Shown one piece after another: positions 4,587 through 22,538 of a stretch of DNA of 42,246 bases. The translations under genes and the position numbers were made by a program. The notes below the pieces were generated by a model that searched no databases, was not told where the DNA came from, and saw nothing but the letters and a program-made list of their open reading frames with translations. The DNA comes from Flavobacterium sp. (lineage in GTDB: Bacteria; Bacteroidota; Bacteroidia; Flavobacteriales; Flavobacteriaceae): the NCBI GenBank assembly GCA_012270005.1, contig JAAXJD010000157.1, positions 1 through 42,246 of the forward strand, given 5' to 3'. Numbering within the stretch: the first letter of the stretch is position 1; each line of letters begins with the position of its first letter.

Positions 4587-6188
4587 ATGGATAACTACGG
4601 CCTTTTTACGAAAACGATTTCGCTTGAATCCCTAGGAATTACAGGCGCTACAGTAAGGTATCAGTTGTCTCCGGAGGAGCTTCATAACCTAACGATTGAA
4701 AAAGGGCAGGGGGTAGAAACCAGTACTGGTGCCCTGGCCATTAACACAGGAACCTTCACCGGGCGGTCTCCCGAAGACCGTTTTATAGTGAAAGATGCCA
4801 TTACCGAAGACAAAGTCTGGTGGGGTAAGGTAAACATTCCGTTCAGCCCAGAGAAGTTTGATGCGCTTTACAATAAAGTAATGCAGTACCTATCGGGCAA
4901 AGAACTTTTTGTACGCGATGCTTATGTATGTGCCGATCCTAATTACAGGCTTAATGTGAGGGCGGTAAACGAGTTACCATCGGGTAACCTGTTTTGCTAC
5001 AATATGTTTTTAAGGCCCGATGCCGATGAGCTTGATGATTACTCGCCGGAGTGGCACGTAATCTCTGCGCCGGGTTTTCAGGCAGACCCTGAAACCGATT
5101 GCACACGCGGCAAAAACTTTGCTATACTAAACTTTACCAAAAAAATAGCCCTTGTAGGTGGTACAGGTTATACCGGCGAAATGAAAAAGGGTATTTTCTC
5201 TGCGCTTAACTTTATACTTCCGGTAGATAAAGATACCTTCCCTATGCACTGTAGTGCTAACGTGGGTAAAGATGGCGATACGGCTATCTTCTTCGGTTTA
5301 TCGGGTACGGGTAAAACCACGCTTTCGGCAGACCCTGCACGCAGGCTTATAGGCGATGACGAGCACGGATGGACGCACGAAAATACCGTGTTTAACTTTG
5401 AAGGCGGATGCTATGCTAAGGTAATTAACCTTACCGAAGAAAATGAGCCGGATATTTACCGTGCCATTAAAAAAGGCGCCCTGCTTGAAAACATTAAATT
5501 TAAGCCGGGAACAAACGAGGTAGATTATGAAGATGTAAGCATAACGCCAAACACCCGCGTAAGCTACCCTATTGATTTTATTGATAACATACAGTTTGGC
5601 TCTGTGGGCTATAACCCTAAAAATATATTTTTCCTTAGTGCCGACTCATTTGGTATACTGCCTCCTATAAGCAAGCTTACCCCTGGGCAGGCTGCTTATT
5701 GGTTTATATCGGGCTACACCGCCAAGGTGGCTGGTACAGAGGAAGGTGTGAAAGAACCACAACCTAATTTCTCAGCTTGTTTTGGCGCGCCGTTTATGCC
5801 GCTGCACCCTGCTAATTATGACGATATGCTGATAAACTAAATGCGTGAGGCAGGAGTAAATGTATGGCTTATTAATACCGGCTGGACCGGTGGGCCTTAT
5901 GGTGTGGGTAGCCGCATGAAACTGCGCTACACCCGCGAAATGATAACCGCTGCCCTTAATGGCGAACTTGATAATGTAGCATTTGTAAAAGAGCCGTTCT
6001 TCGGGCTGTCTGTGCCGCAGAGCTGCCCAAATGTTCCTACAGAAGTGCTAAACCCAAGGGATACGTGGGAAAGCAAGGAAGCGTATGATGAAAAAGCGCA
6101 TGAACTTGCCGATAATTTTAGAAAAAATTTCACTAAATTTGAGGAGTTCTCAAACTACGAAATTATTGCTGGCGGTCCGCTGGCATAA
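4587..6188 (+). pseudogene. pckA: ATP-dependent phosphoenolpyruvate carboxykinase, interrupted by one in-frame TAA
   Basis: 533 codons, the family length. Converts oxaloacetate plus ATP to phosphoenolpyruvate, the entry step of gluconeogenesis. Motifs are intact: RSPEDRFIV near the N-terminus, P-loop GLSGTGKTTLS starting at residue 237, the metal-binding IGDDEHGW, and after the break NTGWTGGPYGVGSRMKLRYT, which holds nucleotide-binding residues. A single TAA at 5838-5840 (codon 418) splits it; both sides are in the same frame with no indel. Related enzymes usually have Lys in this position (as I recall the family), so AAA to TAA is the likely change. An ATG follows the stop directly, so reinitiation on the 115-codon tail is conceivable. 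The truncated product should be inactive. Own promoter and terminator. Confidence 0.93.
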
Positions 6189-13993: not shown

Positions 13994-15748
13994 TTATTTT
14001 ACTACAAGTTTCCTTGTTGCAGATTGTGCACCTTCAGTAATTTTTACAATGTATACACCGGCAGTAAGGTTTACGTTTACTGCACTGTTTACAGTGTTAC
14101 CGGCAAATACCTGCTTACCAAGTACATCATAAATAGCTACAGCTTTAACGTTGTTGCTGTTAGATGTAATGTTTAGCACGTTACCGTTCATTGGGTTAGG
14201 GAACATCCTAAGGCCGTCTATTTCGTTTTGAGCTACGCTTGAAGTATCTGTAATAACATCAGCTACAGCAGTACCTATCCTTAGCTCATCAAAAGTAATG
14301 TTAGGTGTTTTTGCTGTATCGTCCTGACGTAGTACAAAACCACCAAGGGTAGTAAATGCAGTAGCAGGTGTAAATGTAAGTGTAGGTGTAGCAGTACCGT
14401 TAAATCCGCTAACTGTAGGGTTTATCCATGCATTTATTACGTTGTTTGTAAAGTCATAAGATGCAATTACAAGTACTGTAGAGCCTGCGTTATATAGTGT
14501 AGTAGTGTATGCTGTAGTAGTTGCATCGGTACCTGAACCAATACCAATTACAAACTGATCACCTGATTTTTTGTAGAAAAACTTAGTGGTGTAAGATGCA
14601 ACATCAGTGTTAGATGAAAGGTAACCGGCAAAGTATGTTGCAGTACCATCTGTAGTTACATTTGTTTGGTCTAAATTGATTAGAAATGAGCTATAAACTG
14701 TGCCTGAAGTTGTAGATGTAAATGGCGTAACCGCTTCTTTACCTGCACCACCAAAAAGTGCTGCATTACCTGCAGACGGAAGGTTTGCATAAGTTAAGCC
14801 TGGGCTTGTTATTATTACATCGTCTCCAGAGTTACCTGTCCACCATTTTTCTGAATTAGTAAGTATACTGGCTTCTGCGTAATCAAATGATTCGCTGTAA
14901 GGAAGTGTGTTTACCGGCTTACAGTATACGCCAGTCACTGCAATTGTTTGTGTACAGTCTGCAGAACTTGCAACAGTTACGCTGATGTTAGTATTTTCTG
15001 TAATGCCAGAAATTACAATGTTACCGGCAGCTGTTGTAGCAGGATTGTCTCCACCTACAGTACCGGCGGTAGCGCTTACTACATAAGCAGCATTACCTGC
15101 GCCTGTAAAAGGAATGGTAGCGGTGTAAGTGTCAGTACCGTAAGTGCTGGCATCACAAGCTGTTGTTGGTGTTTGAAGAGCAAGAGTACAGTTAGCAGAT
15201 ACATTTGCTACTTTAACATCGTCTACCCTGTATTGTGTATTTCCGCTTGCCGCTGTACGTGTAAAGCGTAGGCGTAGGTTAGATGTAGAAGGGATAGCGT
15301 TAGTTATAGTAATAAGATTCCATCCTGACGCAGAAGAACGGGTGTATGTTAATGGAGAGTACTGTGTACCATCTGTACTTGTTTCTACAGTAAAACTTGC
15401 AGCGGTGTCTATAGTTCCTGATCCTGATTGTAACTGACCAAATGAAAGCACCAGGTTAGCGCCGTTATAGCTTGCTGTGTTTATACCAGATATTTCAAAG
15501 GTTTGTTCTGCTCCGAAATAGATAGCTCCAGCTCCTGTAGCTCCAGCGTAGCCGCTTGATTGTACATTACCACGAACAGATGATGTTCCGCTGTATGTTA
15601 CTGTGGTGTTTTCGTACTGGGTGTAAGCAGTTACAAGTGGGTAAGGGGATGCGTTTCCACCAGGTCCAAAGCCTTCCGTGTAGATCTATTTTGAAGACGA
15701 AACATAAAAAAAAAAAAGGAACATTGATAGGATGTAAAGTTTTTTCAT
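13994..15748 (-). pseudogene. secreted T9SS type A cargo protein, interrupted by an in-frame TAG after the signal peptide
   Basis: 584 codons from ATG 15748. Codons 1-20 encode a signal peptide (MKKLYILSMFLFFFYVSSSK) that includes a 12-T homopolymer; codon 21 is TAG (15686-15688); then IYTEGFGPGGNASPYP continues in the same frame to the end. The N-terminal ~180 residues look like a jelly-roll domain (IYFGAEQTFEISG, TTVTYSGTSSVRGN, LRLRFTRTAASGNTQYRVDD); a second, LamG-like domain starts near LPYSESFDYAEASILTNSEK. The C-terminus is a Por secretion tail (LRMFPNPMNGNVLNI, ATRKLVVK), the signal for T9SS export and surface attachment. Without the first 20 codons an internal start would give an unexported protein. 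Cargo function unknown. Confidence 0.85.
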
Positions 15749-15774
15749 GTTCTAATTTGTTATTAATCCAACAA

Positions 15775-15782
15775 CAAAGATA
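15775..15782 (-). promoter_or_regulatory. -7 box of the T9SS cargo gene
   Basis: TATCTTTG on the minus strand, exact consensus, 26 bases before ATG 15748; a TTG lies about 23 bases further upstream. Confidence 0.55.
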
Positions 15783-15854
15783 GTAAACAGGAAAAAATAT
15801 AAAAACAATAAGTGGTAAAATTATGATTAATTTAGCAGGTAAGCCCAGTGTTAA

Positions 15855-16190
15855 TTACTTAACAATGAGCTTCCTTGTTTCTGATGCTTCACCTTCTTTT
15901 ACTTTTATGATATAAACGCCCGGTGTAAGGTCTGAAATGTTTAGTTCTTTACCCGAAATAGACGCGGCAAGTATGCGCTTGCCCAGTACGTCGAATATTT
16001 CGATATCTCTGCTTTGGCCAGACTTAGAAGTAATATACAGCTTACCACCACTTACCGGGTTAGGGTAAATGTTAAGGCCTTCTATCGGTTCCTTTCCGGC
16101 AGAAATTCCTGACTTACTTTCCTGTGCCGTTGCAGCCAACGAAAACAGGGTAAACAGGAAAACGGTGATGTAATAGTAGTATTTCTTCAT
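15855..16190 (-). CDS. micro T9SS protein: signal peptide plus type A sorting domain only
   Basis: 111 aa. Sec signal peptide (MKKYYYYITVFLFTLFSLAA, cleavage after TAQ), about 15 linker residues (ESKSGISAGKEPIEG), then a complete Por secretion tail (LNIYPNPVSGGKLYITSKSG, IFDVLGKRIL, DLTPGVYIIKVKEGE, SETRKLIVK). No room for a cargo domain. Expected to be exported, recognised by the T9SS, processed and perhaps attached to the surface. It lies between two T9SS/TonB-system genes on the same strand. Whether it is a remnant of a larger cargo, a peptide product or a modulator of T9SS sorting cannot be told from sequence. Confidence 0.85.
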   Translation of the reverse strand: MKKYYYYITVFLFTLFSLAATAQESKSGISAGKEPIEGLNIYPNPVSGGKLYITSKSGQSRDIEIFDVLGKRILAASISGKELNISDLTPGVYIIKVKEGEASETRKLIVK

Positions 16191-16377: not shown

Positions 16378-17559
16378 TTACTTTATAAGTTGTGTACCAT
16401 CTACAACAGACCATGTACCTGAAGTTATAGCAGCTCCTGTAGCAGAGTTGCTTGCAGACCATGAACCTGTAGGCATAGTTACTGTAAACGAAGACGATGC
16501 AGCAAGTATGTCGTGAGTGGTGTTTGTAATTTTAATGTTGTTGATTTTAATCCTTCCGGTGTTAACCTGGTCAGTATTAGTGTTAGCGTCTTGTATTTTA
16601 AGTGCAGCGCCTTCGTATACAGTAGTACCTTCTGTATAGTTACCGTAACCGTCTACTATAATGTTGCTAAAGTCGCCATTACCTTCTTTTTTAAACTGTA
16701 TAGCATCTACCTGTACGTCTCCTGCTACTTCCGGAGTAGTACCGGCAGCCCTTTTTAGGGTGATGTTAGTAATTTTAGGGAAGAACGTATTGTTGTTGTT
16801 AGAAGATTCGATTTCCATACCGAAGTTACCTTTAACAGTTTGGTAAGCGTACCAGTTGCTGTTGTTTTGGCCTTGCCAGCCATCTTGCCAGTCAAAAGCG
16901 TCGTCATAGTTACCGTAAGAGATAAGGTTTGTAGCGCTTACAGTACCACCAAAAAACTCATATCCGTCATCAGCGCCTTTGTAGGCTACCAGGTGATCTA
17001 GTACAGTACCTGTACCACAAGAGTAGAATGTAAATGCGTTGTTTTCTTTAGTACCATCGGCAAGTTTAGCACCTGCGTATTCTACGCGTACATAGTGTAG
17101 TGCACCACCGTTGTGTGCTGCATTTGTACCACCGTAAGTTTGGTTGTTACCGTCTTCTGAAGTAGCTGTTGTAGCACCAGATGCTGCTTTAATAGGCGCA
17201 TCACCGTACATGATTATACCACCCCATGCGCCCGGAGTTTTAGAAGCTTCGGTAAATACTACCGGTGCATCGGCAGTACCGTTAATTATAAGTTTACCAC
17301 CGTTTAGCACTACAAGAGCGTTATCTCCTGTTGATTTATCACAAGTGATTGTAGAACCGGCTTCAAAAGTTACAGTAACACCAGAGGCGATTTTTACAAT
17401 GCCTGAAAGGGTGTAGTTACCGTAAGCAAATGTTTTGTTAGCTGTAATGTTGCCTGAAATAGAACCTTCAACAGGCTGCGGCGTGTTGTCGTCATCGCTG
17501 CTGTTGCATCCTGTAAGTATTGCTCCTGCAAGAACGGCTCCTAAAAGAATTTTTTTCAT
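16378..17559 (-). CDS. surface lipoprotein with parallel beta-helix fold
   Basis: 393 aa. Lipoprotein signal peptide with lipobox LTGC (Cys18), followed by NSSDDDN, an acidic stretch like the flavobacterial lipoprotein export signal, so surface exposure is likely (inference). The body has the short strand-turn repeats of right-handed beta-helices (ASGVTVTFEAGSTITCDKS, LVVLNGGKLIINGTADAPV, AWGGIIMYGDAPI, HYVRVEYAGAKL) and Asn/Asp ladders. Lies directly downstream of a TonB receptor with its own promoter and 11 bp repeat operator. Likely a surface partner of that receptor; ligand unknown. Such proteins are often annotated only as hypothetical. Confidence 0.78.
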   Translation of the reverse strand: MKKILLGAVLAGAILTGCNSSDDDNTPQPVEGSISGNITANKTFAYGNYTLSGIVKIASGVTVTFEAGSTITCDKSTGDNALVVLNGGKLIINGTADAPVVFTEASKTPGAWGGIIMYGDAPIKAASGATTATSEDGNNQTYGGTNAAHNGGALHYVRVEYAGAKLADGTKENNAFTFYSCGTGTVLDHLVAYKGADDGYEFFGGTVSATNLISYGNYDDAFDWQDGWQGQNNSNWYAYQTVKGNFGMEIESSNNNNTFFPKITNITLKRAAGTTPEVAGDVQVDAIQFKKEGNGDFSNIIVDGYGNYTEGTTVYEGAALKIQDANTNTDQVNTGRIKINNIKITNTTHDILAASSSFTVTMPTGSWSASNSATGAAITSGTWSVVDGTQLIK

Positions 17560-17621: not shown

Positions 17622-17629
17622 CAAAAGTA
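17622..17629 (-). promoter_or_regulatory. -7 box of the lipoprotein gene
   Basis: TACTTTTG on the minus strand, exact consensus, 62 bases before the ATG. Confidence 0.55.
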
Positions 17630-17650: not shown

Positions 17651-17710
17651 GTTAGGGGATTGTTATTTGATTATTAAAGTAAAGCCACTAAAGCGTTACG
17701 CTAATGTTAC
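17651..17710 (-). promoter_or_regulatory. candidate operator: two pairs of TAAC direct repeats with 11 bp pitch
   Basis: On the coding strand ATAAC (17662-17666) and CTAAC (17651-17655) are exactly 11 bp apart, and GTAAC occurs twice (17706-17710, 17695-17699), again exactly 11 bp apart. The first pair starts 21 bases upstream of the -7 box. The 11 bp direct-repeat pitch is the arrangement bound by PhoB/OmpR-type regulators, and one is encoded 3 kb away. The same motif precedes the TonB receptor. Confidence 0.5.
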
Positions 17711-17735
17711 CAAGGTAAAGTTTAGTGTAAAACAG

Positions 17736-17763
17736 AATAGCCGCCCTGTAGAGGCGGCTATTT
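17736..17763 (-). terminator. terminator of the TonB receptor gene
   Basis: AATAGCCGCC/GGCGGCTATT stem with 7 base loop, followed on the minus strand by CTGTTTTAC. It lies past the true receptor stop at 17822. Confidence 0.8.
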
Positions 17764-17821
17764 AATCCGTATAAATTAATTTCCTGATTTTTTAAATATA
17801 CGAAGTGTTGTTTGCTGTTTG

Positions 17822-20628
17822 TTAAAACGTGTAGTTAACCCCTACTGAGAAACCTACCCCGCGGCGGAATTCTTTCAGTACATAAGAGTCGGCAAAATAT
17901 GTAGCCGCTACGTTTTTACCTTCTTCAAAACGCACCTTAGGGTTAAGTAGGTTGTCTGCACTTACTTTAAAATCAAAGTGCTCGTTTACCTGCTCCACAC
18001 AAGGTCTAGTCGGCTTACCGGCATTTCATAAATGTGGTCCATAGGAAGGCTACCTACACTGTAAATCCTTTTTCCGAATACAGAGTACACAAGCGTAGCG
18101 GTGTTTGTCCAGTTTTCTTTAAGGTTAAACTGGTATTTAAGGTCAGAGTTTATAAGCCACTTACTTGCACCCTGTAGCTGACGCTCTTTGTGTGTTTCTA
18201 TAGATGGAGATACACCGCCGTTACTGTTTACGTATTGGTCTTTTGTTTTTACGTTAGTGTTCATTACAGAGGTGTTAAAGCCCCATGTAAATTTCTTAAG
18301 GCTTTCGCTAAAGCGGGAAAGTTCCATGATAAAATCAGCTTCCACACCATAAAGGGTTGCATCGCCGGTGTTAAAGAACGTTGTTATAGGGCCACCGGCA
18401 TTCGGCTGGTAAGTACGCTCTATGGCGTTGTTTATTTTTTTACCAAAAGCACCTACAGAGAAAGTTTCTGATTTAGATGGGAACCATTCGTACTTAAGAT
18501 CTGCATTATAGTTGTCGCTGTTTACAAGGTAAGGGTTACCACTTACCGATGTACCGTCGGCATTAATGTAGGTAATGGCAAGCATTTCCATTTGTACCGG
18601 CTTAGTGTAGGTTTTACTAAGGGCAAGGCGCAGGTTAGAGTTGTCGTTAAGGCCGTATTTAGCGTTAAGCGATGGCAGTATGTAGCTTTTGTTGAATGTT
18701 TTTTTAATGTAAGGGTCGTTAAACGAACCATTTTCACGGTATTTCGTTTCACGGTTTACCTGCTCTGTACGTATACCACCGTTTATTTCCCACTTATCGT
18801 TAAACTTAAACAGCACATTAGCGTACCCTGCGTTTATAGATTCAAACAGTTTTGATTTGTACTGCGCGTTAGAGGTTTCCCTGTAGTAAAAGTTAGCCTG
18901 GTCAAGGTCTGTATTGTACTGGCTGTCTATGTTGTCTATGTTACTTGTGTAGTAAGCCGGCGCGCCATCGGTACGGAAGGTAGCTGCAAAACGGTAAGAC
19001 GTTTCCATATCTGACCCAAATCCGTTGTAACCTACAGTAAGCAGGTTTTGCTTGTCTTCGCCTTTACCAAATTTAAGGTTGTATTCGGCCATGCCAGAGT
19101 AATACATATTGCTTTTAATATCCAGGTATTGGCGCAGGAAGTTGTTACCTCCGTAAGATCCTATCAGCTGGTTTGTAGCGGGGTCATACGTACCACCAAA
19201 GAACTTACGGTCTGGCTGCTGGTACGATGTGCTCGAAAACGATGCGCCACCACGTACGTACTGGTTTTTATCTTCGGTAACAAAGTACTTACCGGTTAGC
19301 TGTGCAGTTACATAATCACTCTGATCCAGCTGGTTTGTACGCAGCATGTAGTTAGGGTTTATGGTTTGCGCCTCAAGTATACCGTACTGGTCTTTAATAG
19401 AGTTTTCGGTATTTTTCAGGTAAAACACATTAGCGCCCAGGTCTAGCCTTTTTGTTTTGTAGGCAGCACCTATAAGCGCGCTACCGTTAGTTTTGTATTT
19501 ATACTCGCTTGCGTAAAAGTCGTTATAAAAATACACACCCGTGTTTGGTCCGCCAAAAAGGTTACGATCCGCACCTTTGCGTATGGTGTAGCTATTGTCA
19601 AAGTTTAGCGAAACAAGGTATGTAAGCTTAGCGTCGTTTTTAAAGTCGAATTTGCTTGCGTGTAAAAAACCTATGCTACTGTTAAGCGGGCTCTTGTAGC
19701 TGTCTACGTTAAATCCGGAAGGGAACGCCGATTTAGACTGTGCCGGTGTAAGTGTTTTTGCCGAAGGCCTTCCTCCAAAAATACCCGGTAGTTGCCTGTC
19801 GCTGCCTGCAAGGCCAAAGAAGCCCTGAGCACCATGTGCATCGCTATCCAGTTTAAAGTCGGCCAGGTTGTTGTTTGTAGTATAGCCTACACCTACGCTT
19901 ACTTTGGTTACATCTTTAGTTCCTTTAGAAGTGGCAATGTTAAACGTACCACCTGCAAAGTCAGCATAAATATTAGGGTTGAATGTTTTAAATACATCTA
20001 CCACACCTACAATGTCTGTAGGGAAAATATCTAGCGGAAGTACTTTTTTAAACGGGTTGTTAGAGGGTACTGCCAGGTCGTTTACTAAAAGGCTGTTGTA
20101 GCGGTCTTCCAGTCCGCGTACAAAAATACCCCTTGAGTCTACTTTAGTAATACCGGTAATTTTAGTAAGGCCTTCCTCCACATCGCCTATACCTTTACGG
20201 CTAAGTTCCTGTGCACCTATACTCTGTTTAATTTCTACCGCGTTTTTTTGTTCTAAAAGCAGGGCGGTTTCTTTTTCGCGGTTTACCGTTTTTTCTATCA
20301 CCACGTCTTGCAGCTGCACGCTGGTACTGCCCAGTTGCTGGTCTACTGTTTTAGTTTCTCCGGCGGCTACGGTTACTTTAACCTCTTTAGATTCGTATCC
20401 TAAAAAGGCAAATACTATGGTGTAGGTTCCGGCGTTTACTTTAAGTGTATATACACCGTTCTCGTCTGTGTTGGCTGTGTTAGGGTATCCTTTAACCGTT
20501 ACGGTTGCAAAGGGAAGGGCTTCGCCACCAAGGTCTTTATCAGTAACTTTACCGGTTACTGTGCCTTTTTCCTGGGCAAATCCCATTACAAAAGTAAGTA
20601 GTGTTATTACTAACAGTTTAAGTTTCAT
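17822..20628 (-). pseudogene. TonB-dependent receptor, frameshifted 55 codons before its C-terminus
   Basis: About 935 codons. Signal peptide (MKLKLLVITLLTFVMGFAQ), carboxypeptidase-regulatory-like domain at about 20-110 (GTVTGKVTDKDLGGEALPFA, TIVFAFLGYESKEVKVTV), plug at about 120-240 (LTKITGITKVDSRGIFVRGL), then the 22-strand barrel. Translation as written stops at 17986 after RLDLVWSR. The -1 frame from there reads QVNEHFDFKVSADNLLNP and on to FSVGVNYTF, the aromatic barrel end, stop 17822-17824. Losing one C (agccag to agcag at about 17990-17994) explains it. Imports a large or scarce ligand with TonB energy; not SusC-length, and no SusD homologue is beside it, so the beta-helix lipoprotein may be its partner. 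Divergent from the two-component pair. Confidence 0.9.
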
Positions 20629-20650
20629 TGCGTGTTGTTTAAATTCGGTG

Positions 20651-20695
20651 CAAAGATGCTGTGAGGCATTAAACCGAATGTTAGAGAATCGTTAG
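20651..20695 (-). promoter_or_regulatory. TonB receptor promoter with 11 bp direct-repeat operator
   Basis: Near-consensus -7 box CATCTTTG (20651-20658, minus strand) and, 21 bases upstream of it, CTAACGATTCT followed directly by CTAACATTCGG (CTAAC at 20691-20695 and 20680-20684, exact 11 bp pitch). The repeats occupy the -35 region, where PhoB-type activators replace the -35 element. Matches the repeats at 17651-17710. Confidence 0.5.
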
Positions 20696-20723
20696 GTTTG
20701 GATTTAGTATTTATTATTAAATT

Positions 20724-20749
20724 GTTAACAGATTAAATTACGGTTAACA
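20724..20749. promoter_or_regulatory. paired GTTAACA sites upstream of the response regulator
   Basis: GTTAACA at 20724-20730 and again at 20743-20749, 19 bp apart, between the divergent receptor and regulator genes; ATTAA at 20732 is 11 bp from GTTAA at 20743. Possibly autoregulatory, weaker case than the 11 bp CTAAC pairs. Confidence 0.3.
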
Positions 20750-20811
20750 CTCTTTTATCATTTTTTATTATCTTTACCTTTACCACCGCTAAACATTCAT
20801 ATAGCGTCAAG

Positions 20812-21495
20812 ATGAAGAAGAAAGACATTAAGATTTTGTTAGTCGATGATGAACCGGATATCCTTGAAATTGTGGGATATAACCTGTCTCAGGAAGGCTA
20901 CCAGATTGTTACGGCGGTTAACGGTAAAGAGGCCGTAGCCAAGGCAAAAAAAGAAATGCCGCACCTGATTATCATCGATGTGATGATGCCCGAAATGGAC
21001 GGTATGGAGGCAGTAGAAAACATAAGGAAGATACCGGAGCTTGCTAATGTGATTATTACCTTCCTTACGGCCCGTAGCGAGGATTACTCTCAGGTGGCAG
21101 GGTTTGATGCCGGCGCAGATGATTACATAGCCAAGCCTATAAAACCGAAATTACTGGTTAGTAAGGTAAAGGCGTTGCTGCGTAGGCTTAAAGAAGACGA
21201 AAACAAAGAAGATGTACTTAAAGTGGGTAATATAGAAATTAACCGCGAAGAGTATAAAATAGTAATAGAAGACCGCGAAATTGTGCTTCCGCGCAAGGAG
21301 TTTGAACTGTTTTACCTGCTGGCAAGTAAGCCGGGCAAGGTGTTTAAACGCGAAGAAATCCTGGATAAAGTGTGGGGTAACGAGGTTGTGGTAGGAGGCC
21401 GTACCATAGACGTGCACATACGCAAGCTGCGCGAAAAAATAGGCGACGAAATATTTAAAACCATAAAAGGAGTAGGCTACAAGCTTGAAATTTAG
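20812..21495 (+). CDS. OmpR/PhoB family response regulator
   Basis: 227 aa. Receiver domain at 1-125 with acidic pocket VDDEPD at 11-16, phospho-acceptor D56 in IIDVMMPEMDG and the conserved Lys in YIAKPIKPK; winged-helix DNA-binding domain at about 135-227 (LPRKEFELFYLLASKPGKVF, VGGRTIDVHIRKLREKIGD, IKGVGYKLEI). Closest in layout to PhoB. Forms an operon with the histidine kinase: its stop TAG shares the G with the kinase GTG. The direct repeats before the divergent TonB and lipoprotein genes are its likely targets. Phosphate as the signal is suggested by PhoB/PhoR similarity only. Confidence 0.92.
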   Translation: MKKKDIKILLVDDEPDILEIVGYNLSQEGYQIVTAVNGKEAVAKAKKEMPHLIIIDVMMPEMDGMEAVENIRKIPELANVIITFLTARSEDYSQVAGFDAGADDYIAKPIKPKLLVSKVKALLRRLKEDENKEDVLKVGNIEINREEYKIVIEDREIVLPRKEFELFYLLASKPGKVFKREEILDKVWGNEVVVGGRTIDVHIRKLREKIGDEIFKTIKGVGYKLEI

Positions 21496-22538
21496 TGAAC
21501 ATAAAATTTAAAAAGTCATACAGGTTTGCCGTAAAATCGGCCTCGTACATATCGTTATTTTCTGCCGCTATGCTTACAGCATTGCTGTGTTTTATGCATA
21601 CCGTAAACTGGCTTTTTATTTTTGTTTTTACGTTTTCGCTCTTTGTGTTTGCGTTTTTTGTACTGCAATACCGCGTAGAACATTTTATTTACCGCAGGGT
21701 AAAGAAAATTTACGACGATATTTCGCTGCTCGAAGCAAGCCCCATGCGCAGTAAGCCGGTAATGACCGATATGGCTACCCTTACCCGTGAGCTGGAAAAA
21801 TTTGCGCGCGACAAAAAACTCGAAATAGAAACCCTTAAGGTTCAGGAAGAATACAGGCGGGAGTTTTTAGGTAATGTATCGCACGAGCTAAAAACCCCGC
21901 TATTTACCGTTCAGGGCTACCTGCTTACCCTGCTGGACGGCGCCATGAACGACAAAACCCTCCGCAAAAAATACCTGCAACGTGCCGAAAAAGGTGTAGA
22001 ACGCCTTATATACATAGTGCAGGACCTGGATATGATTAGTAAAATGGAGGTGGGCGACCTAAACCTTAACTATACCCGTTTTAATATTGTAGAGCTGATA
22101 CAAAATGTTTTTGACCTGCTGGAAATGAAAGCCGACAGCAAAAACATTATACTGATGTTCGACATGAAGTACATAAAGCCTATAATGGTTTATGCAGACC
22201 AGGATAAGGTGCAGCAGGTGGTTACTAACCTGGTTATGAATTCCATAAAATATGGTAAAGAAGATGGTACTACCGAAATAAGTATAGAAGACCTTGTAAA
22301 CAACAAGGTAATTGTACGCGTAAAAGATAACGGCGAAGGTATAGAGCAAAAACACATACCCCGACTTTTTGAGCGCTTTTACCGCGTAGATAAAAGCGGT
22401 GCCCGCACCGAAGGCGGCTCAGGCCTTGGGCTTGCCATAGTAAAGCATATTATAGAGGCCCACGACGAAAAAATTTACGTAGAAAGTAACTTCGGGCAGG
22501 GGTCAGAGTTTTCATTTACCCTCGAAAAGGCTAAATAA
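21495..22538 (+). CDS. PhoR-like sensor histidine kinase
   Basis: 347 aa, start GTG at 21495 overlapping the regulator stop by one base (translational coupling). Two adjacent membrane helices at about 16-34 and 38-57 with almost no periplasmic loop, so it has no extracytoplasmic sensor domain. HisKA with phospho-acceptor H130 in NVSHELKTPLFTVQGYL, N box VTNLVMNSIKYG, G1 DNGEGI, F box RLFERFYRVDKSGARTEGG, G2 GSGLGLAIVKHI. The minimal sensor resembles E. coli-type PhoR, which reads transporter status. Its 3' end overlaps the convergent glycosyltransferase gene by 27 bases. Confidence 0.92.
   Translation: MNIKFKKSYRFAVKSASYISLFSAAMLTALLCFMHTVNWLFIFVFTFSLFVFAFFVLQYRVEHFIYRRVKKIYDDISLLEASPMRSKPVMTDMATLTRELEKFARDKKLEIETLKVQEEYRREFLGNVSHELKTPLFTVQGYLLTLLDGAMNDKTLRKKYLQRAEKGVERLIYIVQDLDMISKMEVGDLNLNYTRFNIVELIQNVFDLLEMKADSKNIILMFDMKYIKPIMVYADQDKVQQVVTNLVMNSIKYGKEDGTTEISIEDLVNNKVIVRVKDNGEGIEQKHIPRLFERFYRVDKSGARTEGGSGLGLAIVKHIIEAHDEKIYVESNFGQGSEFSFTLEKAK

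Follow-up and report, generated by a model that had tools for sequence, protein, structure and literature searches.

A candidate flavobacterial Pho box of NTAAC direct repeats at 11-bp pitch near a PhoB-like regulator gene

Pho boxes and related operators

The Pho box of Escherichia coli replaces a −35 element, and the PhoP box of Bacillus subtilis, which consists of TTAACA-like repeats at a pitch of about 11 bp, belongs to another phylum and another sigma factor than the repeats described here and is not known to have outer-membrane targets. Riemerella anatipestifer, from which a related motif is known, is a flavobacterium in the wide sense. In the E. coli box, two 11-nt direct-repeat units are bound by PhoB head-to-tail (PMC4415409, in the passages considered), an arrangement that resembles the one found here. 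The E. coli core is CTGTCAT, whereas no core of this type was found in the window (the whole 42,246-nucleotide stretch of Flavobacterium sp. DNA that was analysed) or in the aligned relatives, where the core is NTAAC and lies 25 nt before the Bacteroidota −7 TTTG, with up to six conserved register positions. A nearly identical core occurs in the cyanobacterial SphR Pho box, where at least three 8-bp repeats, CTTAACCT, stand in tandem before pst and phoA; since they are separated by 3-bp linkers, the TTAAC cores also recur at a pitch of 11 bp (PMC1906773, in the part considered). That box, however, differs in phylum, promoter type, and target set, the targets here being a TonB receptor and a surface lipoprotein. 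The box of E. coli ArcA likewise comprises two to five direct repeats, mostly 11 bp apart from centre to centre (PMC3798270, in the part considered), but ArcA is a redox regulator with other targets.

The DAP-seq motif of R. anatipestifer PhoP has the core TTTAACA, which partly anticipates the present box, and shift assays with this protein involved moxR, a TonB-receptor gene and its own promoter (PMC9603813). The protein was described there as ArcA-like and linked to aerotolerance and virulence; its text contains neither "direct repeat" nor "Pho box", and the portions considered give neither a pitch nor a distance to the −7 element nor any association with phosphate genes. The moxR sites of the present scan arose independently of that result. 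In marine plcP clusters, with Flavobacteria among the groups, PhoB sites were predicted at plcP, a box-bearing gene here as well; the passages considered specify neither a consensus nor the pitch or place in the promoter, and they leave the phyla of the marked sites unstated (PMC4796936). B. fragilis PhoB shifts a pstC promoter, the passages concerned giving no motif. In the open-access literature searched, which leaves most subscription journals outside, no Bacteroidota Pho box with a defined pitch and promoter position was found, and the nearest precedents in the parts considered are the Riemerella TTTAACA motif and the unspecified plcP Pho boxes (PMC9603813, PMC4796936).

Genes and repeats in the window

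A preliminary description of the window had placed a PhoB/OmpR-type regulator beside a TonB receptor, and this was borne out. The ORF at 20812-21495 (+ strand) encodes a PhoB-like response regulator with a receiver (PF00072) and a winged-helix Trans_reg_C domain (PF00486), the presumed binder of the boxes. Its two best NCBIfam models were TIGR02154 PhoB (214.5 bits) and NF053854 (210 bits), with scores below the equivalog cut-offs of 296.2 and 270 bits, respectively. The adjoining ORF (21495-22538, + strand) codes for a PhoR/PnpS-like sensor histidine kinase with HisKA and HATPase_c domains, the best models of which, PnpS and PhoR, were both under cut-off. Divergent to the regulator gene lies the gene of the TonB-dependent receptor (17986-20628, − strand; PF13715, PF07715, PF00593), and the gene of an FI/FII/FIII-type lipoprotein without a Pfam match occupies 16378-17559 on the same strand. 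The receptor reading frame is broken near its 3′-end.

Comparison of the window ORFs with the locus tags in Table 1 of PMC8115612 showed the same gene order as at the F. johnsoniae phoBR locus, with the receptor and the FII lipoprotein alongside; as judged by gene order alone, the receptor is the counterpart of Fjoh_0545 and the lipoprotein that of Fjoh_0546. In the "FC" column of that table, read here as log2 in keeping with the text of the paper, the receptor and the lipoprotein next to phoBR have values of 8.02 and 9.91 under Pi depletion, and the OprP gene at this locus showed no induction (−1.3). Among the phosphatases of F. johnsoniae, PhoX responds most strongly to Pi depletion.

Direct reading of the sequence confirmed three TAAC pairs with a pitch of exactly 11 bp, all in the same orientation relative to the genes, as had been claimed. 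On the + strand they read GTTAG at 20680 and 20691, GTTAG/GTTAT at 17651/17662 and GTTAC at 17695/17706, which correspond to CTAAC-N6-CTAAC, ATAAC-N6-CTAAC and GTAAC-N6-GTAAC on the − strand, on which the receptor and lipoprotein genes also lie. The statement that the two target promoters are divergently placed was wrong, as they stand in tandem.

In the receptor promoter, the putative Pho-box core (20680-20695, − strand), which matches in sequence and geometry, is made up of a distal (20691-20695) and a proximal half-site (20680-20684), the latter at the −33 region. Two upstream in-register half-sites lie at 20713-20728 (− strand), TTAAC at offset −33 (20724-20728) and ATAAT at offset −22 (20713-20717). 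The distance from the proximal TAAC to the TTTG of the −7 element CATCTTTG (20651-20658, − strand; consensus TAnnTTTG) is exactly 25 nt. The same 25 nt separate the core of the lipoprotein promoter, ATAAC-N6-CTAAC (17651-17666, − strand; recognised by sequence, geometry and matrix), from the TTTG of its −7 element TACTTTTG (17622-17629, − strand), so both genes have a fixed −35/−33 placement, as judged from the −7 element. The second lipoprotein pair (17695-17710, − strand; offsets −33 and −44) lies 44 bp (4 × 11) upstream of the first, and thus all four half-sites fall into one 11-bp register. On the + strand, TTAAA-N6-TTAAC at 20733-20748 is a candidate box for autoregulation of the phoB-like gene, to which its conservation points, and TATCTTTA (20769-20776) is a possible −7 element of this gene.

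The bare pair count in the window is uninformative, because VTAAC-N6-VTAAC occurs four times (the three pairs above and one within an ORF, 14976-14991) compared with 1.67 ± 1.41 in shuffles, 13 of 100 of which reach four, and several other TAAC spacings are equally or more frequent. TAAC-N7-TAAC-N25-TTTG, on the other hand, has two matches in the window, the receptor and the FII lipoprotein promoters, against 0.03 expected, and none of 100 shuffles contained two. It is the position and geometry of the pairs, not their number, that are above chance.

Conservation and distribution of the boxes

The receptor/phoB intergenic regions of Flavobacteriaceae were compared in a non-redundant set of 38, the window's included. 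Eighty phoB loci had been fetched, from which two (L059 and L083) were too short; the other 78 and the window gave 79 loci, 55 with a divergent ORF, of which a crude receptor pattern caught 40, reduced to 38 by redundancy removal. This pattern overlooked several likely receptors, among them L037, L045, L066 and L074, which are therefore absent from the set. The spacing spectrum of the 38 regions contained 47 pairs at 11 bp versus 0.7 ± 0.8 in 300 shuffles, with further peaks at 22, 33 and 44. TAAC/TAAC/TTTG at the window spacing was present with at most one mismatch in 36 regions, the other two being without an anchor. The alignment logo revealed conserved columns at six register positions, and in-register columns were conserved beyond the anchors at −33, −22, −9/−8 and +22 to +25, which include the upstream half-site offsets of the receptor. 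A Pho box is expected to consist of at least two head-to-tail units at 11-bp pitch, and such units are present both in the window and in its relatives. On the phoB side, the pattern TTAAATTACnGTTAA was found with at most one mismatch in 24 of the 38 regions, including that of the window.

In the window's own genome, TAAC-N7-TAAC-N25-TTTG had seven sites versus one for the reversed pattern, and the genes following them encode two TonB receptors (that of the window and a second one), the FII lipoprotein, a porin (PF07396), a phosphoesterase (PF12850/PF00149), a MauE-type protein and an HTTM protein. The proposal withstood the genome-wide test suggested in the preliminary description: in 101 Flavobacterium genomes, the same promoter frame gave 347 pitch-11 and 70 pitch-13 sites, pitch 11 being about five times as frequent. 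Since related genomes do not contribute their sites independently, the chance probabilities given here are too small. The pitch-11 count is barely above its own reversed control (316), and the reversed controls hardly differ between the pitches (280 for pitch 13), thus only the pitch comparison is informative. The high reversed count probably comes from the different composition of the reversed words; the reversed pattern was dropped as the N25 control and pitch 13 was used instead. A three-half-site pattern, modelled on the receptor promoters and counted before whatever downstream gene, had 67 matches in 65 of 199 Flavobacterium genomes and three in the reversed control, while the strict −7 form TAnnTTTG was not enriched in 16 relatives (10 matches vs. 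seven in the reversed control). In a class-wide sample of 295 genomes outside the window's order, seven three-half-site matches were obtained versus three in the reversed control; the genes at the seven include one for a PhoB-like protein that shares 63% identity with the window regulator, a PlcP-like gene, and genes for an OprP-type porin and a TonB receptor.

From the lists of 347 pitch-11 and 70 pitch-13 sites, the first 60 and the first 40, respectively, were inspected for downstream genes; three of the latter 40 were lost at contig ends, leaving 37 controls. Placement outside ORFs of at least 150 aa with an ATG ORF start within 350 nt downstream was found for 42 of 60 pitch-11 but only five of 37 pitch-13 sites. 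The anticipated association with phosphate genes was also observed, as homologues of phosphate genes or the receptor followed 20/60 and 0/37 sites, respectively. These 20 comprise 11 TonB receptors, three Pit, two DUF47 and one each of PhoA, OprP, PlcP-like and FII; the receptor sites were identified by homology, not by adjacency to phoB site by site, and two of them (L218 and L248) are distant, with 26% identity, and probably not the phoB-linked receptor. Two further porins, L216 and L239, were recognised by eye only and stand outside the count; L239 has no ATG start. Another 11 of the 60 sites precede moxR, which is no classical phosphate gene, and 29 precede another gene or no ATG ORF; without moxR, phosphate genes and receptors form the largest recognised group (20/49). 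The boxes thus precede phosphate-acquisition genes genome-wide, with PhoX and many FII homologues as exceptions.

A matrix trained on 36 receptor promoters was applied to 618 other upstream regions, and phosphate genes, which make up 37 of the 618, accounted for seven of the ten highest-scoring regions and for 17 of the first 25. None of six Flavobacterium PhoX upstream regions, some with uncertain start codons, had a box above the 95th percentile. Among the 44 ORFs homologous to the lipoprotein across the 80 phoB loci, 16 exceeded the 95th and three the 99th percentile. PF12849, used as the pstS marker, gave 30 loci, one of which (L346) had no usable frame; 13 with weaker scores (L351-L363) were set apart by eye as a second PBP-like group, which may be TonB-associated and which served as comparison (2/13 above the 95th percentile, AUC 0.49). 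One of its members, L361, in which two pairs at exactly 11 bp occur, could be a genuine pstS. Inside the window the matrix separates poorly: the best sites are the receptor (12.7, itself in the training set) and FII lipoprotein promoters (12.4), and four intra-ORF sites score 11.1-11.8, the third-best site of the window (11.8) among them. The second lipoprotein pair ranks 7 and the candidate phoB box, with its weak score, 12.

A proposed operator and its alternatives

The pitch-11 excess and the tie to phosphate genes support the flavobacterial counterpart of the Pho box, with the core TAAC-N7-TAAC, that the preliminary description had suggested. Judging from sequence, the repeats are very probably a Pho box, most likely bound by the adjacent PhoB-like regulator under low phosphate in class II activation. 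The operator would be an array of head-to-tail NTAAC half-sites at 11-bp pitch, a single turn of the DNA, most likely occupied by the regulator as tandem dimers when phosphate is scarce. With the proximal half-site at −33, a fixed 25 nt ahead of the TTTG in the sigma-A −7 element, PhoB, if bound, would replace the contact at the −33 consensus and recruit RNA polymerase. Extra in-register half-sites (offsets −11 to −44) may provide cooperative or graded binding. Predicted targets in the own genome are the receptor, the FII lipoprotein, the OprP-type porin, the PlcP-like metallophosphoesterase, and probably phoB itself.

It is unlikely, though worth weighing, that the boxes belong to another OmpR-family regulator, e.g., an RprY-like one, and that the phosphate genes share them partly or via cross-talk. 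The own genome encodes eight Trans_reg_C proteins (E up to 1e-8), moxR is preceded by the same geometry, and 11-bp repeats are common to other family members such as E. coli ArcA (PMC3798270). The Riemerella "PhoP", which binds its TTTAACA motif at moxR (PMC9603813), could be the counterpart of PhoB or of RprY, and in the double mutant the level of pstS was raised 8-fold instead of being lowered (PMC5399024). Nevertheless, phosphate genes and receptors lead the recognised non-moxR sites, and the conserved receptor-promoter array sits in the phoB intergenic region. Moreover, in one genome (G052) just two regulators of this kind pass the E cut-off, PhoB and one similar to the own genome's RprY-like protein (RprY as best NCBIfam model, below its cut-off), yet its porin (12.5) and pstS (13.5) upstream regions score above the control 95th percentile of 10.6.

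We regard it as quite improbable that the arrays are repressor sites or an AT-rich UP-like element instead of activator sites. Long arrays do cover the promoter, and in the part of PMC9603813 considered, 34 genes bound directly by the Riemerella "PhoP" were up and 16 down in the phoP mutant, but the F. johnsoniae counterparts were induced, not repressed, by Pi depletion (PMC8115612, in the part considered), the proximal half-site at −33 leaves the −7 element free, and exactly spaced TAAC words would be superfluous in an UP-like element. Chance TAAC spacings in AT-rich DNA, with the genes regulated otherwise, e.g., by the ECF sigma factors present in some Pi-induced F. johnsoniae clusters (PMC8115612, Table 1, as far as considered), would fit the lack of an excess of bare pairs in the window but are scarcely credible, being largely refuted by the pitch spectrum, the fixed N25 to the −7 element, the column conservation outside the anchors and the pitch-13 control.

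Bacteroidetes are prominent in phosphorus mobilisation around roots, and phosphate depletion in F. johnsoniae activates TonB receptors and surface lipoproteins of unknown function (PMC8115612, in the part considered). With a usable operator, the regulon would become readable from sequence. The results suggest that phosphate control may extend to the ArcA-like motif of Riemerella and to the moxR/bat link. More speculatively, and with rather less chance of being right than wrong, the NTAAC/11-bp/25-nt code could serve the entire class Bacteroidia as its Pho box, with half-site number ranking genes in the starvation response and moxR/bat as an ancient core member; if true, this membership would connect phosphate sensing with aerotolerance or with control of the envelope.

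TAAC pairs and promoter geometry in the window

As the preliminary description had proposed, three TAAC pairs (20680/20691, 17651/17662 and 17695/17706) lie on the minus strand at exactly 11-bp pitch, 5′ of the genes for the TonB-dependent receptor (17986–20628, minus) and the lipoprotein (16378–17559, minus; two pairs). These targets had also been called divergently placed; they are in tandem, and it is the receptor gene that is divergent to the phoB-like regulator gene (20812–21495, plus). A distance of 44 bp between the lipoprotein pairs places all four of their half-sites in one 11-bp register. Bare TAAC pairs showed no excess in the window (4 observed vs 1.67 ± 1.41 in shuffled sequences, with at least 4 in 13 of 100 shuffles), and several spacings besides 11 bp were equally or more frequent. 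At both genes exactly 25 nt separate the proximal TAAC from the TTTG of the −7 element, and the composite of TAAC pair, N25 and TTTG occurred twice against an expectation of 0.03, two matches being found in none of 100 shuffles. For exceeding chance, the composite, which the preliminary description had not mentioned, is the decisive feature.

The receptor ORF stops early, at 17986, and a receptor-like C-terminal stretch goes on in another frame immediately downstream (17833–18013, minus), which indicates that, near 18,000, either the gene has a frame break or the assembly is wrong. Downstream of the lipoprotein gene, the 13994–16190 region (minus) encodes two proteins that carry type IX secretion tails (PF18962) and may belong to the phosphate cluster. 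A gene at 4587–6188 (plus), presumably for a phosphoenolpyruvate carboxykinase-like protein, is split by a single in-frame TAA (5838–5840), either genuine or a sequencing error.

Conservation and genome scans

The loci, taken around the closest homologues of the regulator, were the best 80 of at least 580 candidates encoding a relative, and their titles include Kordia, Allomuricauda, Cellulophaga, Maribacter, Salegentibacter, Flagellimonas, Zobellia and Mesonia. The 38 receptor/phoB intergenic regions left as non-redundant, counting the window's, contain 47 TAAC pairs at 11 bp vs 0.7 after shuffling, a measure of conservation and not of independent origin, because the regions share descent. 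Spacings of 22 (15), 33 (42) and 44 bp (37) were also strong, as were those of 19 (29), 30 (14) and 52 bp (23), attributable to another conserved cluster closer to phoB. In the 36 of these 38 regions that could be anchored and aligned, columns outside the anchors were conserved at −33, −22, −9/−8 and +22 to +25, in 11-bp register; spacer columns were mostly variable, with exceptions such as −27 and −5.

The window's own genome contains seven TAAC-N7-TAAC-N25-TTTG matches vs one in the reversed control (16 vs 3 at fixed spacing with one mismatch allowed; 3 vs 0 for TAnnTTTG with a gap of 20–24). They precede the genes of the receptor, the lipoprotein, an OprP-type porin (PF07396), a second TonB receptor, a calcineurin-like phosphoesterase whose Pfam type (PF12850) is the one listed for F. 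johnsoniae PlcP, a MauE-type protein and an HTTM protein. Flavobacterium akiainvivens, whose regulator (97%) is the closest named relative among the matches listed, gave six matches vs none reversed, two of the six inside ORFs; the receptor was found again, together with an alkaline phosphatase (PF00245). In both genomes a MauE/DoxX-type gene follows the box TAACATCTCATTAAC with its −7 element at a distance of 25 nt (1501–1544 in each fetched locus, L001 and L104), and the intervening sequence has diverged; this gene is possibly another target.

The three-half-site form modelled on receptor promoters, TAAC-N7-TAAC-N7-TTAC-N14-TTTG, matched 67 times, in 65 of 199 genomes of the genus, vs 3 times in the reversed control. 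The two-half-site form supported the expected genome-wide enrichment, with 347 matches at pitch 11 (95 of 101 Flavobacterium genomes) vs 70 at pitch 13 (52 of 101). In the reversed controls pitch barely mattered (316 and 280). The reversed control alone would have suggested no enrichment; pitch 11 vs 13 is the informative contrast. Among the first 60 listed pitch-11 sites, 46 fell outside any ORF of ≥150 aa vs 13 of 37 usable pitch-13 sites, and 42 vs 5 were also followed within 350 nt by the start of an ATG ORF (one-sided Fisher 3.5e-8, overstated because the genomes are related).

Beyond the family, 295 genomes of the class, 11 from the window's order, yielded seven matches to three exact TAAC half-sites in seven genomes, all of other orders, vs three reversed, a count that is weak alone. 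Four precede genes for a PhoB-like regulator (63% identity to the window regulator over 225 positions), a PlcP-like phosphoesterase, an OprP-type porin and a TonB receptor; the others precede an aldose-epimerase gene, a short protein and no ATG ORF.

Genes downstream of the boxes

The suggested tie to phosphate genes was also supported. By blastp against reference proteins, named from Pfam except for the lipoprotein (without a Pfam match) and PstC (position after pstS), the 60 pitch-11 sites preceded TonB receptor (11), moxR (11), Pit (3), DUF47 (2), PhoA, OprP, PlcP-like and FII-type surface lipoprotein genes (1 each), other genes (16) or no ATG ORF (13); none of these named classes stood behind the 37 pitch-13 controls (12 other, 25 without an ATG ORF). 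A matrix built from 36 receptor promoters, the window's included, was run over 618 further upstream regions in the 80 loci, and the comparison was kept within this set because phoB-flanking loci are rich in phosphate-class genes. Such genes filled seven of the first ten ranks and 17 of the first 25 (37 of 618 overall). In the window the two promoters ranked first and second (12.7 and 12.4), with four ORF-internal sites close behind (11.8–11.1), so the matrix alone is not specific.

When genes were chosen first (FII-type from the 80 loci; porin, pstS and PhoX from family searches), the control 95th and 99th percentiles were exceeded by 15 and 5 of 30 porin, 8 and 3 of 16 pstS, 16 and 3 of 44 FII-type and none of 6 PhoX upstream regions, and by 2 and 1 of 13 in a PBP-like comparison group. 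Phosphate genes thus often, though not always, carry the box, and none was seen at PhoX in six regions. In two Aquimarina loci (L054, 4689–5816, plus; L065, 4696–5823, plus) boxes scoring 18.4 and 18.1 precede a membrane-protein gene, which we take to resemble a ChrA-type transporter; in L054 a pit-like gene is close by.

The predicted binder and known Pho boxes

The top models for the adjacent regulator are two PhoB equivalogs, with scores under both cut-offs, and its own genome encodes eight regulators carrying this DNA-binding domain (E up to 1e-8). At the same E-value one Flavobacterium genome (G052) has only two, PhoB and an RprY-like regulator, yet upstream of its porin and pstS genes the scores exceed the control 95th percentile. 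On these grounds PhoB is the likely candidate binder. A candidate box facing phoB, TTAAA-N6-TTAAC (20733–20748), is weaker than those of the receptor and lipoprotein and recurs with at most one mismatch in 24 of the 38 regions. Because TTAA is self-complementary, the 11-bp repeat of this element (20733–20748 and 20724–20738) is readable on both strands, and phoB, the receptor or both of them might be its target. Phosphorylated PhoB would occupy the tandem half-sites in head-to-tail order, the proximal one, at −33, would substitute for the −33 contact, and extra in-register half-sites would raise occupancy.

The core of the window box is close to the cyanobacterial Pho-box core, and the Bacillus PhoP box is a further known comparison. 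In published work, a Pho box consists of two direct repeats of 11 nt (PMC4415409), ArcA sites commonly have three to five repeats of 11-nt type (PMC3798270), the cyanobacterial repeats are CTTAACCT (PMC1906773), and the F. psychrophilum −7 consensus is TAnnTTTG (PMC9723704, where the available text does not mention PhoB). In B. fragilis, PhoB shifts a pstC promoter fragment of 512 bp, in a paper that does not use the word consensus (PMC3547664); putative Pho boxes were placed at plcP clusters of marine bacteria, with no consensus in the accessible text (PMC4796936); and the available sections of PMC3160421 and PMC7533571 contained no Bacteroidota Pho boxes. In F. johnsoniae, published data give Pi-depletion induction of 3.06 for phoB, and of 8.02 and 9.91 for the phoBR-adjoining receptor and FII lipoprotein (“FC” read as log2); the main text contains neither “motif” nor “promoter” (PMC8115612).

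The TTAAC-N6-TTAAC-N25-TTTG promoter is conserved before moxR in same-genus genomes (L201, L205, L206, L210, L214, L223, L228, L237, L247, L252 and L257), and these sites were found independently of PMC9603813. That report describes an ArcA-like DAP-seq core, TTTAACA, for Riemerella PhoP, which reportedly binds moxR; its shift assays covered moxR, the promoter of the regulator itself and a TonB-receptor gene, and moxR was lowered by log2 2.03 in the phoP mutant (PMC9603813). In a Riemerella double mutant pstS rose 8-fold, at odds with simple activation (PMC5399024). The Riemerella motif partly foreshadows the window box. The main point of the Pho-box reading holds: the element is real and conserved and looks functional, and as a predicted operator it adds a new, well-defined member to the known class of Pho boxes.
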